IMG/VR virus record: IMGVR_UViG_3300032116_000102
Span: 21,560-85,559 of that record
Direction: 5' to 3' (one strand)
Origin: a virus
DNA: 64,000 nucleotides
Below the pieces are notes generated by a model that worked only from the letters and a program-made list of their open reading frames with translations, ran no database searches and was not told the DNA's origin. Position 1 is the stretch's first letter; every line of letters begins with the position of its first letter. Below are positions 1,378 to 62,430 of the stretch, piece after piece. A program made the position numbers and the translations under genes.

Positions 1378-1764
1378 ATGAAACTCTATGGTCCATACAC
1401 TCGCAAAGATGGCAGACAACATGTCATTCTTTACGAGAACGGCAAACGCAAAACAGTAAGCTATCCCAAGTATTTACTTGAGACAAAGCTTGGTCGATCT
1501 CTTTTGCCTCATGAAACCTGCGATCACATTGATGGAGATCCTTTAAACAATTCTTTAGATAACTTGCAGATGCTATCCAGATCGGATAACGTACGCAAGC
1601 ACGCAGCTCTTTCACCTGCAGAGCTGGGGACTTTCACTTGTCCTATTTGTTTGTGTTCATTTACCAAACGAATGCATAGCACTAGGCACAATCGAAAGCA
1701 AGGAAAACGTGGACCTTATTGTTCACGTTCATGCGCAGGTAAAGCTGGCCGACTAGCCCAATAG
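1378..1764 (+). CDS. HNH homing endonuclease inserted in a tRNA gene
   Basis: 128 residues. The HNH core is DHIDGDPLNNSLDNLQ, the common phage HNH type with an N-rich helix. The C-terminus has a CPIC...YCSRSC cysteine cluster that probably binds zinc. The gene lies between the cut-off 5' half of a tRNA and a complete tRNA. Its last codons (GRLAQ, stop) are encoded by the 5' half of that complete tRNA, with the TAG in the D-loop. This suggests a mobile gene that targets the tRNA and supplies a new 5' half so the tRNA survives. The family call is firm; homing at this site is inferred. Confidence 0.85.
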   Translation: MKLYGPYTRKDGRQHVILYENGKRKTVSYPKYLLETKLGRSLLPHETCDHIDGDPLNNSLDNLQMLSRSDNVRKHAALSPAELGTFTCPICLCSFTKRMHSTRHNRKQGKRGPYCSRSCAGKAGRLAQ

Positions 1765-1824
1765 GAAGCAGGCAAGTGACTTAAAATCACTCCAGTCCCG
1801 GTTCGAATCCGGGGTCGGCTACCA
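1747..1824 (+). tRNA. tRNA with anticodon UAA (reads UUA), CCA encoded
   Basis: Acceptor GGCCGAC/GTCGGCT (first pair G-U), 3-bp D-stem GCC/GGC with GG in the loop, anticodon stem AGTGA/TCACT with loop CTTAAAA, T-arm CCCGG TTCGAAT CCGGG, discriminator A and encoded CCA. The anticodon UAA would read leucine UUA. However, the variable loop is only 5 nt (CCAGT), whereas leucine tRNAs normally have a long variable arm, so the amino-acid identity is uncertain. The 5' half overlaps the end of the HNH gene and differs in the D-arm from the orphaned 5' half at 1349. Confidence 0.85.
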
Positions 1825-21874: not shown

Positions 21875-21948
21875 TCGGAGATGCAGGATTTGAACCTGCG
21901 ACCCATTGCTCCCAAAGCAATTGCGCTACCAAGCTGCGCTAATCCCCG
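21875..21948 (-). tRNA. tRNA-Pro (anticodon UGG)
   Basis: On the minus strand: acceptor CGGGGAT/ATCTCCG, D-arm with GCGC stem and TTGG loop, anticodon stem ATTGC/GCAAT with loop TTTGGGA (anticodon UGG), T-arm GCAGG TTCAAAT CCTGC. No CCA encoded. UGG reads most proline codons, so the phage may supplement proline decoding. Confidence 0.93.
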
Positions 21949-60376: not shown

Positions 60377-61396
60377 TCAGATGCTGCCGTCGTCCTGGAC
60401 AAAGCTGAAGGCAGTGGTCACAAAGTCCTTGTTCAGGATTTCAAAACCAGCGTACAGTTGCCAGATCAGGATGATGAAGCGGCTGAAGTCATCGTTGTTG
60501 TTGATGAGCACCTGGGCGTTAGGGCCACCGATACCAACACCAATCGACTGAGGACCGAAGAAGTAACCTTGAGCAACTTCTTGGTTGCTGTAGGAAGGAG
60601 AATCGGTGAAGCTTGCGCTAACAGTCTTGGTTGGGAAGTTGGTCGATTCGAAGAACTTCACACCTTCGAACTGAACACCAGTCGGCATCACAGGCTCACC
60701 AGCCAGGAAATAACCCTGACCAGCTTGGGGACCCATGTAGAAGCTGGCGTTGTTAGGCATCATGGGGTTGCCCATGTACATGCCTTGGCCAGGGTTGCCG
60801 CTGTAACGTGCGATCTCACGGAAGTCTGGGTCACGACGCAGATGCATCATGAAAGTAGGATCGCAGATGCAACGATACAGACCATCAGCGAAGGTAGGAA
60901 CGTTGCGCTTACGCAGGTCCTTAACAACGGTCAGCAGGTCAGTACGCACCTGGAACTGCTGCACCTGAGCGGCGTACTCAGCAGAGGTATAGGAGATCGA
61001 ACCGTTGGCAGCTTTGGTCTTGCCACCGGGGAAGTAGTAACCACCCTGGGTGCTGGAAGCTTCACCGTTTGCTTCTGCTTTGGCAAGCTCGTCAATAAAG
61101 ACGCGGTCACGCCAACGGCGATAGTCGTCAAGCAGCGTCAGGCTGCCGATCGACTGGTGGAACATGTTGAGGTTGCCCGAATCCAGAAGCAGGCGCTGAG
61201 CCGTGATCAGGGTTTCGCGAGCAATCTTGAAGGTGCTGGGCTGGGTCGGATCGCCCGGGTCTGCAGGACCGGTGTATTCCTTAAGCACCACCAGGACTTT
61301 CTCCTTGGTGATGTTACGGCTGTTGGCAGTACCGATAGTCTGGTCAGCAATACGCTCACGGCTATCCTTCGTACCAGGGGTACCCCAGAACTTGTA
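60377..61396 (-). CDS. Major capsid protein, exon 2 (joined to 62287-62430)
   Basis: 339 codons of the 387-residue product. Starts in the intron-joined codon TAC (Y49): exon 1 ends LDR, exon 2 begins YKFWGTP. Call by position: downstream of a scaffold-like gene and upstream of structural genes, with text such as LYRCICDPTFMMHLRRDP and YFPGGKTKAANG. N4-gp56-like/HK97 type by impression. A 890-nt group I intron splits it from exon 1. Confidence 0.85.
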   Translation of the reverse strand, partial: YKFWGTPGTKDSRERIADQTIGTANSRNITKEKVLVVLKEYTGPADPGDPTQPSTFKIARETLITAQRLLLDSGNLNMFHQSIGSLTLLDDYRRWRDRVFIDELAKAEANGEASSTQGGYYFPGGKTKAANGSISYTSAEYAAQVQQFQVRTDLLTVVKDLRKRNVPTFADGLYRCICDPTFMMHLRRDPDFREIARYSGNPGQGMYMGNPMMPNNASFYMGPQAGQGYFLAGEPVMPTGVQFEGVKFFESTNFPTKTVSASFTDSPSYSNQEVAQGYFFGPQSIGVGIGGPNAQVLINNNDDFSRFIILIWQLYAGFEILNKDFVTTAFSFVQDDGSI

Positions 61397-62286
61397 CAAA
61401 TGTTATCCCAAAGGTTCTTTATCCCTTGGATCTTACGGTTTATCATCCCGTAAGTTCAGACTATATCATCAAGCAACTTTTGTTACTTGTCCTGCGCTCG
61501 TGCCTTCTTATCGTCTTCATCTGCAAATGCAATGTTAAGACTCGCTGCGTAAAGTTCAGAATTTTTTGTTCTGTTTTTGTAACGCAGGGTCACTTTATTT
61601 TGTAATGTTGAATGCACATAAGGCCGTAACAACGTTACAAAACCAGGCATCTCTCCACTTAAAATTCTTAAACGATAGTGTTTACGATCTAAATAAAGCC
61701 TTGGATTAACACTTGTTAAATCGTGGATCCATGAGGCAATGCTTTTCGCTTCATCTTCAGAACAATAAGTTGCAAGCAGTCCAACATTATTTGAACTAAC
61801 CACGCATCCATCGTCCATCCAAAAAACAGCTAACGCTTCTAAACCAAGCCCATCAAGATACTCTTGTGAAAAAAATTTTTTACCATTCGGATAAAATTTC
61901 TCTCTCAGTGGTACCAGTAGTTTGCTGGTTACCATGGACTGGCAAGAATTATAAGTTTTCAAGGTGCGTTTGTCGTAAACCTTTCTAGAACTAACTTTTC
62001 CGTTTGTCCCAAGCTCTTGATTGACTTTAGACATTTTCCATTCAAGAAAAACTTTTTGTTTTTCAGAATGAGTAAAAGATAAATAACAAGTGTTTTTACC
62101 TTTTGGGTATCCAAGACATCCGTCGCCTAAGGTGCATGCTCTGGAAAAGGAAAGGCTCACTGTGTGACCAAAGGTAGTCGTTGAACCTTCCGACCATTTC
62201 TGGGCGGCTTGGCTGCTGATTGCCCAATGCTATCGCATTGACGGGTTTCCAGCAATTCACAGGATTTAAAGACCGCTACAAATTCA
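61397..62286 (-). ncRNA. Group I intron in the capsid gene
   Basis: 890 nt between exon codons CGT and TAC. P1: exon end GACCGT pairs with internal guide GCGGTC, with the conserved U-G at the splice site. Core sequences AATTGCTGGAAACC, AATCAGCAGCCAAG, GAAGGTTCAACGACTA (62172-62188 region) and GATATAGTCTGAAC (near 61454-61468) match P3-P8 of subgroup IA introns. The intron ends in G. A LAGLIDADG gene occupies the middle. The join restores a continuous reading frame. Splicing itself is inferred. Confidence 0.9.
61483..62160 (-). CDS. LAGLIDADG homing endonuclease in the intron
   Basis: 225 residues, GTG start at 62160. Two LAGLIDADG-type motifs: FSRACTLGDGCLG near the N-terminus and LEALAVFWMDDGC at about 125-137, each with the acidic active-site residue. 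Lies between the P3-P7 5' part and the P7 3' strand of the intron core. Would cut intronless capsid genes. Confidence 0.92.
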   Translation of the reverse strand: MSLSFSRACTLGDGCLGYPKGKNTCYLSFTHSEKQKVFLEWKMSKVNQELGTNGKVSSRKVYDKRTLKTYNSCQSMVTSKLLVPLREKFYPNGKKFFSQEYLDGLGLEALAVFWMDDGCVVSSNNVGLLATYCSEDEAKSIASWIHDLTSVNPRLYLDRKHYRLRILSGEMPGFVTLLRPYVHSTLQNKVTLRYKNRTKNSELYAASLNIAFADEDDKKARAQDK

Positions 62287-62430
62287 ACGGTCTAACTGAA
62301 CAGTTTGGCCCGGTTGGCGAGTAAAATCGTGAACAACTACAGGCTCAACCGCCATTTCCGCAACGTATGCGGGGTGAGGGCGATATAACTCAGCCCCGAG
62401 AATCTTAGGGAAGTCGTTGTCAATAAACAC
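62287..62430 (-). CDS. Major capsid protein, exon 1
   Basis: 48 codons: (M)FIDNDFPKILGAELYRP ... QTVQLDR, GTG start with GGAGG upstream (62443-62447 region). The frame would hit a stop at the first intron codon (TGA), so the piece only makes sense joined to 60377-61396. Confidence 0.85.

Follow-up and report, generated by a model that had tools for sequence, protein, structure and literature searches.

The window (the whole 64,000-nt stretch of viral DNA analysed here, part of an 85.6-kb IMG/VR record) carries on its minus strand a major capsid protein (MCP) gene divided into two exons. An element with the features of a group I intron lies between them, and contains a gene for a LAGLIDADG homing endonuclease. 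The features of the locus, ordered along the transcript, are given below.

62287-62430 (-): MCP exon 1; GTG start, 48 codons, ends ...GACCGT; gapless against uninterrupted homologues
62287-62293 (-): P1 exon strand AGACCGT, with U at the splice site; 7 bp with GCGGTCT
61397-62286 (-): predicted group I intron, 890 nt; first codon an in-frame TGA, terminal G
62277-62284 (-): P10 guide AATTTGTA; pairs with the exon 2 start TACAAGTT (61389-61396), 8 contiguous pairs including wobble
62270-62276 (-): P1 internal guide sequence GCGGTCT; 7-bp pairing
62258-62264 (-): P3 5' strand TCCTGTG; covaries with P3'
62175-62257 (-): P4-P5-P6 core and P7 5' strand (GACTA, 62175-62179); from the Rfam alignment, strongly conserved in the family
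61483-62160 (-): LAGLIDADG_2 homing endonuclease gene, 225 aa from GTG (start uncertain); PF03161, E 4.9e-22
61490-61496 (-): P3 3' strand CGCAGGA; within the last codons of the endonuclease gene
61470-61489 (-): P8 hairpin CAAGTAAC-AAAA-GTTGCTTG; holds the endonuclease stop codon
61459-61463 (-): P7 3' strand TAGTC
61432-61454 (-): P9 hairpin CTTACGG...CCGTAAG; 7 bp in 30/30 distinct sequences
61408-61429 (-): P9.1 hairpin CCAAGGG-ATAAAGAA-CCTTTGG; 25/27 distinct strand pairs fully paired
60377-61396 (-): MCP exon 2, 339 codons; phrog_1357 major head protein, E 7.6e-14

The split capsid gene

The GTG of exon 1 is closely preceded on its 5' side by GGAGG. The two exons fuse in frame, CGT being followed by TAC, as an earlier note on this DNA had read from the letters; the junction lies between codons 48 and 49, and the joined protein has 387 aa. 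That note had proposed an alignment with related capsid proteins, which was run with the isolate Synechococcus phage S-EIV1 and 80 IMG/VR capsid homologues; these do not contain the intron part. An uninterrupted, unannotated frame in S-EIV1 (KJ410740) is 87.9% identical to the joined protein over residues 1-387, and the best 80 IMG/VR loci are 90-98% identical to it and cross the junction without a gap. The identification of the host gene as the major capsid gene held, through the PHROG 'major head protein' match of exon 2; uninterrupted relatives match the same family at E 9.5e-17 and 1.4e-19. A Pfam search of the MCP gave no match, and no chain was matched in a comparison of the MCP profile with PDB sequences. 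The AlphaFold model of the MCP had a pLDDT of 33 and was unusable for recognition of an HK97 fold.

In S-EIV1, the MCP locus (L095, KJ410740.1 60784-62010) holds an intact plus-strand frame of 383 codons that matches major head proteins. No MCP gene is listed in the GenBank record, which annotates across this frame a 'hypothetical protein' on the minus strand and a short CDS on the plus strand. Annotation easily overlooks or divides the capsid genes of phages from the environment. In another locus, L094, MCP exon 1 has a small frameshift, which may reflect decay or sequencing errors. Two tRNA genes (Rfam RF00005) are present elsewhere in the window, at 1747-1821 (+) and 21875-21948 (-).

Intron RNA and endonuclease gene

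At the 5' splice site, AGACCGU of exon 1 pairs with GCGGUCU of the intron, forming a P1 of 7 pairs that ends in the U.G pair at the splice site. This P1 and the terminal G of the intron had both been described earlier and are present. The P10 pairing was absent from the earlier note: exon-2 UACAAGUU pairs with AAUUUGUA (wobble allowed) directly 5' of the P1 guide, which fits the 3' splice site. P3 (TCCTGTG/CGCAGGA), P8, P9 and P9.1 are paired perfectly or nearly so.

Covariation counts were drawn from 60 distinct family introns. All 10 distinct strand combinations of P3 are fully paired (shuffled mean 1.9, maximum 7), with changes on both sides in 4 of the 7 pairs; for P9.1, the count of 25 among 27 combinations compares with a shuffled mean of 3.5 and a maximum of 11. 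The covariation or pairing of P3, P9.1 and P9 argues that the RNA has been maintained.

The search against Rfam RF00028 suggested in the earlier note gave a match at E 1.6e-8, with a score of 40 bits that falls below the gathering score of 50 bits. At the gathering threshold Rfam called no intron in the window, and the match came from the e-value scan. Many ORF-less relatives score 66-98 bits with the same model. The cmscan alignment placed P3' on the 5' side of most of the endonuclease coding sequence, apparently because a gene of ~680 nt sits inside the core; this placing was rejected, and relatives place P3' at 61490-61496. When the first 194 nt were folded by themselves, the z was -1.6 and the core was not recovered. 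Subgroup IA is marked by extra sequence (P7.1/P7.2) between P7 and P3; in the window P3' lies downstream of an insertion after P7, and ORF-less relatives have a short hairpin-like stretch at that position. By its sequence the element in the window is a group I intron, and its insertion between P7 and P3 makes it IA-like; subgroup IA, as proposed at first reading, is the probable assignment.

The endonuclease gene lies between the P7 5' strand and P3', and its 3' end overlaps P3' and P8. The presence of a LAGLIDADG gene in the intron was borne out: the PF03161 (LAGLIDADG_2) match covers positions 9-168 of the profile, and both motifs, TLGDGCLG and LAVFWMDDG, are present. The dN/dS of the endonuclease was 0.06-0.12 to all relatives compared except the most distant (whole range about 0.06-0.23), with dN of 0.04-0.10 and dS of 0.6-1.1 to close relatives. 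These comparisons indicate that the endonuclease is under purifying selection, as is MCP exon 2.

A decayed intron, or a stand-alone endonuclease gene, could instead have broken the capsid gene on insertion, so that no full-length MCP is made or another capsid gene is used. The window copy scores below the curated Rfam threshold and its splicing is predicted from sequence, both of which would accommodate such an insertion. However, the examined core helices are intact, as are the two splice sites and the reading frame, selection has acted on the endonuclease and on exon 2, the arrangement recurs in separate contigs, and the covariation shows that the RNA is maintained. We therefore consider a broken gene very improbable.

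We assign a slightly lower probability still to an assembly chimera, in which metagenome contigs were joined through repeated intron cores. One locus has the appearance expected of a chimera: in L173 (595-962), the 5' half of a site-36 intron is apparently fused to the 3' half of a site-48 intron, through recombination or misassembly, with exon codons 37-48 absent and the frame broken. The 85.6-kb record that includes the window, in contrast, has neither a second RF00028 match nor a second match to PF03161; with one detected intron, there is no repeat to cross between. Moreover, intron and exon 2 are identical to those of the window on another contig (L082), and the element, mostly in diverged form, is found at the same junction in 12 more.

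Occupied and empty alleles at codons 48/49

Homologues of the endonuclease were found at 13 IMG/VR loci (50-100% identity), all in the MCP gene at exactly the junction of codons 48 and 49. ORF-less introns of 246 nt (L103) and 234 nt (L101), scoring 75-81 bits with RF00028, lie at the same junction. The exon 1 end GACCGT is present in 17/17 distinct occupied alleles compared with 11/130 empty alleles, in which exon 1 mostly ends in C (Fisher p 2.9e-15, a value that ignores shared ancestry). This bias fits the U needed at a group I splice site together with co-conversion during homing.

In some pairs of loci identity is higher in the intron than in exon 2, as predicted by horizontal movement: 94.0% versus 85.5% identity for L083 and L091, 93.3% versus 83.0% for L085 and L086, and 89.6% versus 82.3% for the window and L091. 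Other pairs, for example the window and L086, show the reverse, with lower identity in the intron, and transfer has therefore not been uniform.

From all this we infer that the virus is an uncultured S-EIV1-like cyanophage whose MCP gene contains a mobile, IA-like group I intron with a LAGLIDADG gene, an intron for which splicing and homing are predicted from sequence (probability roughly 0.93). In the proposed mechanism, the intron RNA would fold in the late transcript, and guanosine would attack after ...GACCGU. Ligation of the exons would then yield a normal MCP, and an unspliced message would give a 48-residue fragment only, through the stop at the splice site. Because of this in-frame stop, virion production would be tied to splicing. 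The endonuclease is expected to cut intronless MCP genes near the junction of ...GACCG(C/T) with TAC..., and repair would copy the intron and some flanking exon, allowing spread between co-infecting phages. Homing at other sites would account for an intron-rich MCP gene, with about 11 sites and up to five introns per copy.

The endonuclease may also serve as a weapon that cuts the capsid gene of intronless co-infecting phages and lowers their yield. This role would add to mobility by homing and not replace it, and we hold it to be possible but rather unlikely. The endonuclease is intact and under selection, and its targets would be common because empty MCP alleles outnumber occupied ones. There is also a precedent in the intron endonuclease of PhiPA3, for which interference competition with a co-infecting phage is reported in PMC11620839. 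The present sequence data, however, do not separate interference from plain homing.

Capsid genes as intron hosts

A core pattern was built from intron letters only. It matched 88 stretches, and 77 of the 80 loci listed were in S-EIV1-like MCP genes. In two others, L112 and L151, the intron was in an MCP gene from another type of phage (phrog_267, E about 1e-40), at its 5' end, and the remaining one was in an ATPase gene.

Splice mapping gave about 11 insertion sites, at approximately residues 4, 21, 30, 35-36, 48, 53, 87-88, 132, 144, 286 and 354 in window MCP numbering. Five group I introns, each a separate Rfam match, interrupt a single MCP gene in L122 (3446-6664); the last, at site 144, carries on its other strand a LAGLIDADG-like gene (read by eye). 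Three introns are present in the MCP gene of L093, and two, with about 17 exon bases between them, in that of L114. The same multi-intron layouts recur across separate metagenomes (L124/L125/L176 and L115/L158/L172). L173 was left out of the clean multi-intron cases as an apparent chimera.

Long introns at sites 21, 35/36, 48, 87 and 88 contain LAGLIDADG genes, which are 23-32% identical between most sites. In the endonuclease tree the clades correspond to insertion sites, and this fidelity lends indirect support to cutting of the intronless allele at the insertion site. A jump from one site to another is suggested by the endonucleases of sites 21 and 87, which are sisters (42%). Endonuclease frames are broken in introns of L123 and L158, reflecting decay or sequencing errors.

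An arbitrary sample of 80 MCP loci contained an intron in at least 17; it was at site 4 in 11 of these and lay past residue 20 in the other 6. RF00028 was also used to scan 36 records; in the S-EIV1-like records examined, the matches lie at the MCP gene. We consider it probable that one lineage of group I introns has the S-EIV1-like MCP gene as its favoured location and that it radiated there over about 11 sites, through homing and jumps within the gene; one copy of the gene has as many as five introns, and none were detected elsewhere in the records examined. This hot-spot pattern is the more interesting part of the analysis and is well supported by the sequences, with the caution that metagenome assemblies can be chimeric.

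Could the concentration of 77 in 80 be an artefact of the gene from which the pattern was derived? This explanation was rejected: the pattern holds intron letters only, and a relaxed version matches many other genes. Among the 80 loci listed for the relaxed pattern, 2 were in S-EIV1-like MCP genes, and 14 of 104 flanking ORFs were SU10_MCP, MCP families being the commonest hosts. The flanking ORFs also included several further capsid families (1-2 each), psbA (4), DNA polymerase, gp32 and others. Concentration in one gene is therefore a trait of the sublineage and not of group I introns generally. Judged from these matches, capsid genes are common intron hosts beyond the S-EIV1-like sublineage.

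The earlier note had treated capsid genes as unusual hosts. Among the related introns found here, the MCP gene is instead the commonest recognisable host, and the view is also out of date with respect to published introns in LittleE, Tuc2009 and crAss-like phages (PMC3706429, PMC7886860). Mycobacteriophage LittleE has a probable group I intron of ~820 nt with a LAGLIDADG-type gene in its major capsid gene, with splicing proven by RT-PCR and N-terminal sequencing, and the related phage Omega lacks this intron (Pope et al. 2013, PMC3706429). As in the window, a U ends exon 1 and a G ends the intron; the LittleE endonuclease gene, unlike the one described here, is on the opposite strand and in a phage with a Mycobacterium host, whereas that of the window runs in the direction of the capsid gene and overlaps P3'. 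The capsid intron of Tuc2009 is cited in the same paper (PMC3706429). MCP group I introns also occur in the crAss-like Delta and Zeta groups, with one Zeta MCP gene in five fragments (Yutin et al. 2021, PMC7886860). Those are gut phages of another kind, and the introns described here, five of them in the L122 MCP gene, belong to a widespread aquatic cyanophage lineage; exact sites, covariation and a site-by-site comparison are added here. A LAGLIDADG-bearing group I intron in an MCP gene is thus of a kind already known, and the pattern across relatives is less expected. The literature searched, which did not include the original S-EIV1 paper, yielded no account of introns in the MCP genes of S-EIV1-like phages.

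The 5' core of the window intron is 71% alike over 105 nt to that of the group I intron of the Synechococcus phage S-PM2, which is hosted by psbA and not by a capsid gene. The endonuclease of the S-PM2 psbA intron belongs to another family than the LAGLIDADG gene here. Several group I introns per gene are known in Twort orf142 and in polymerase and terminase genes of Bastillevirinae (PMC11878797), where the hosts are tail-tube or DNA-metabolism genes and not, as here, capsid genes. The Bastillevirinae survey found introns only in genes of nucleotide and DNA metabolism and asked why (PMC11878797); the S-EIV1-like lineage is a clear counter-example to such restricted colonisation. Because numerous alleles with and without an intron are available for several sites of one gene, the lineage offers natural variants for the study of what makes a good intron home, and these also bear on whether capsid-gene endonucleases aid competition within the cell. 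Few phage genes are expressed as strongly as those for the capsid, and introns there must therefore splice fast and well.

A related intron with a GIY-YIG-like gene interrupts an ATPase gene (L323, G032:C1:7941-8239), and others lie at the 5' end of phrog_267 MCP genes in phages unlike S-EIV1 (L321, G030:C1:16549-17723; L322, G031:C1:43668-44037), with three consecutive Rfam matches and an HNH gene in L321. The site-4 introns of L083-like loci are of a different sublineage. A second, ORF-less group I intron sublineage lies 4 codons into the MCP gene in L300 (1040-1320) and in many S-EIV1-like loci, and because of this position the short start exons are missed in gene calls.
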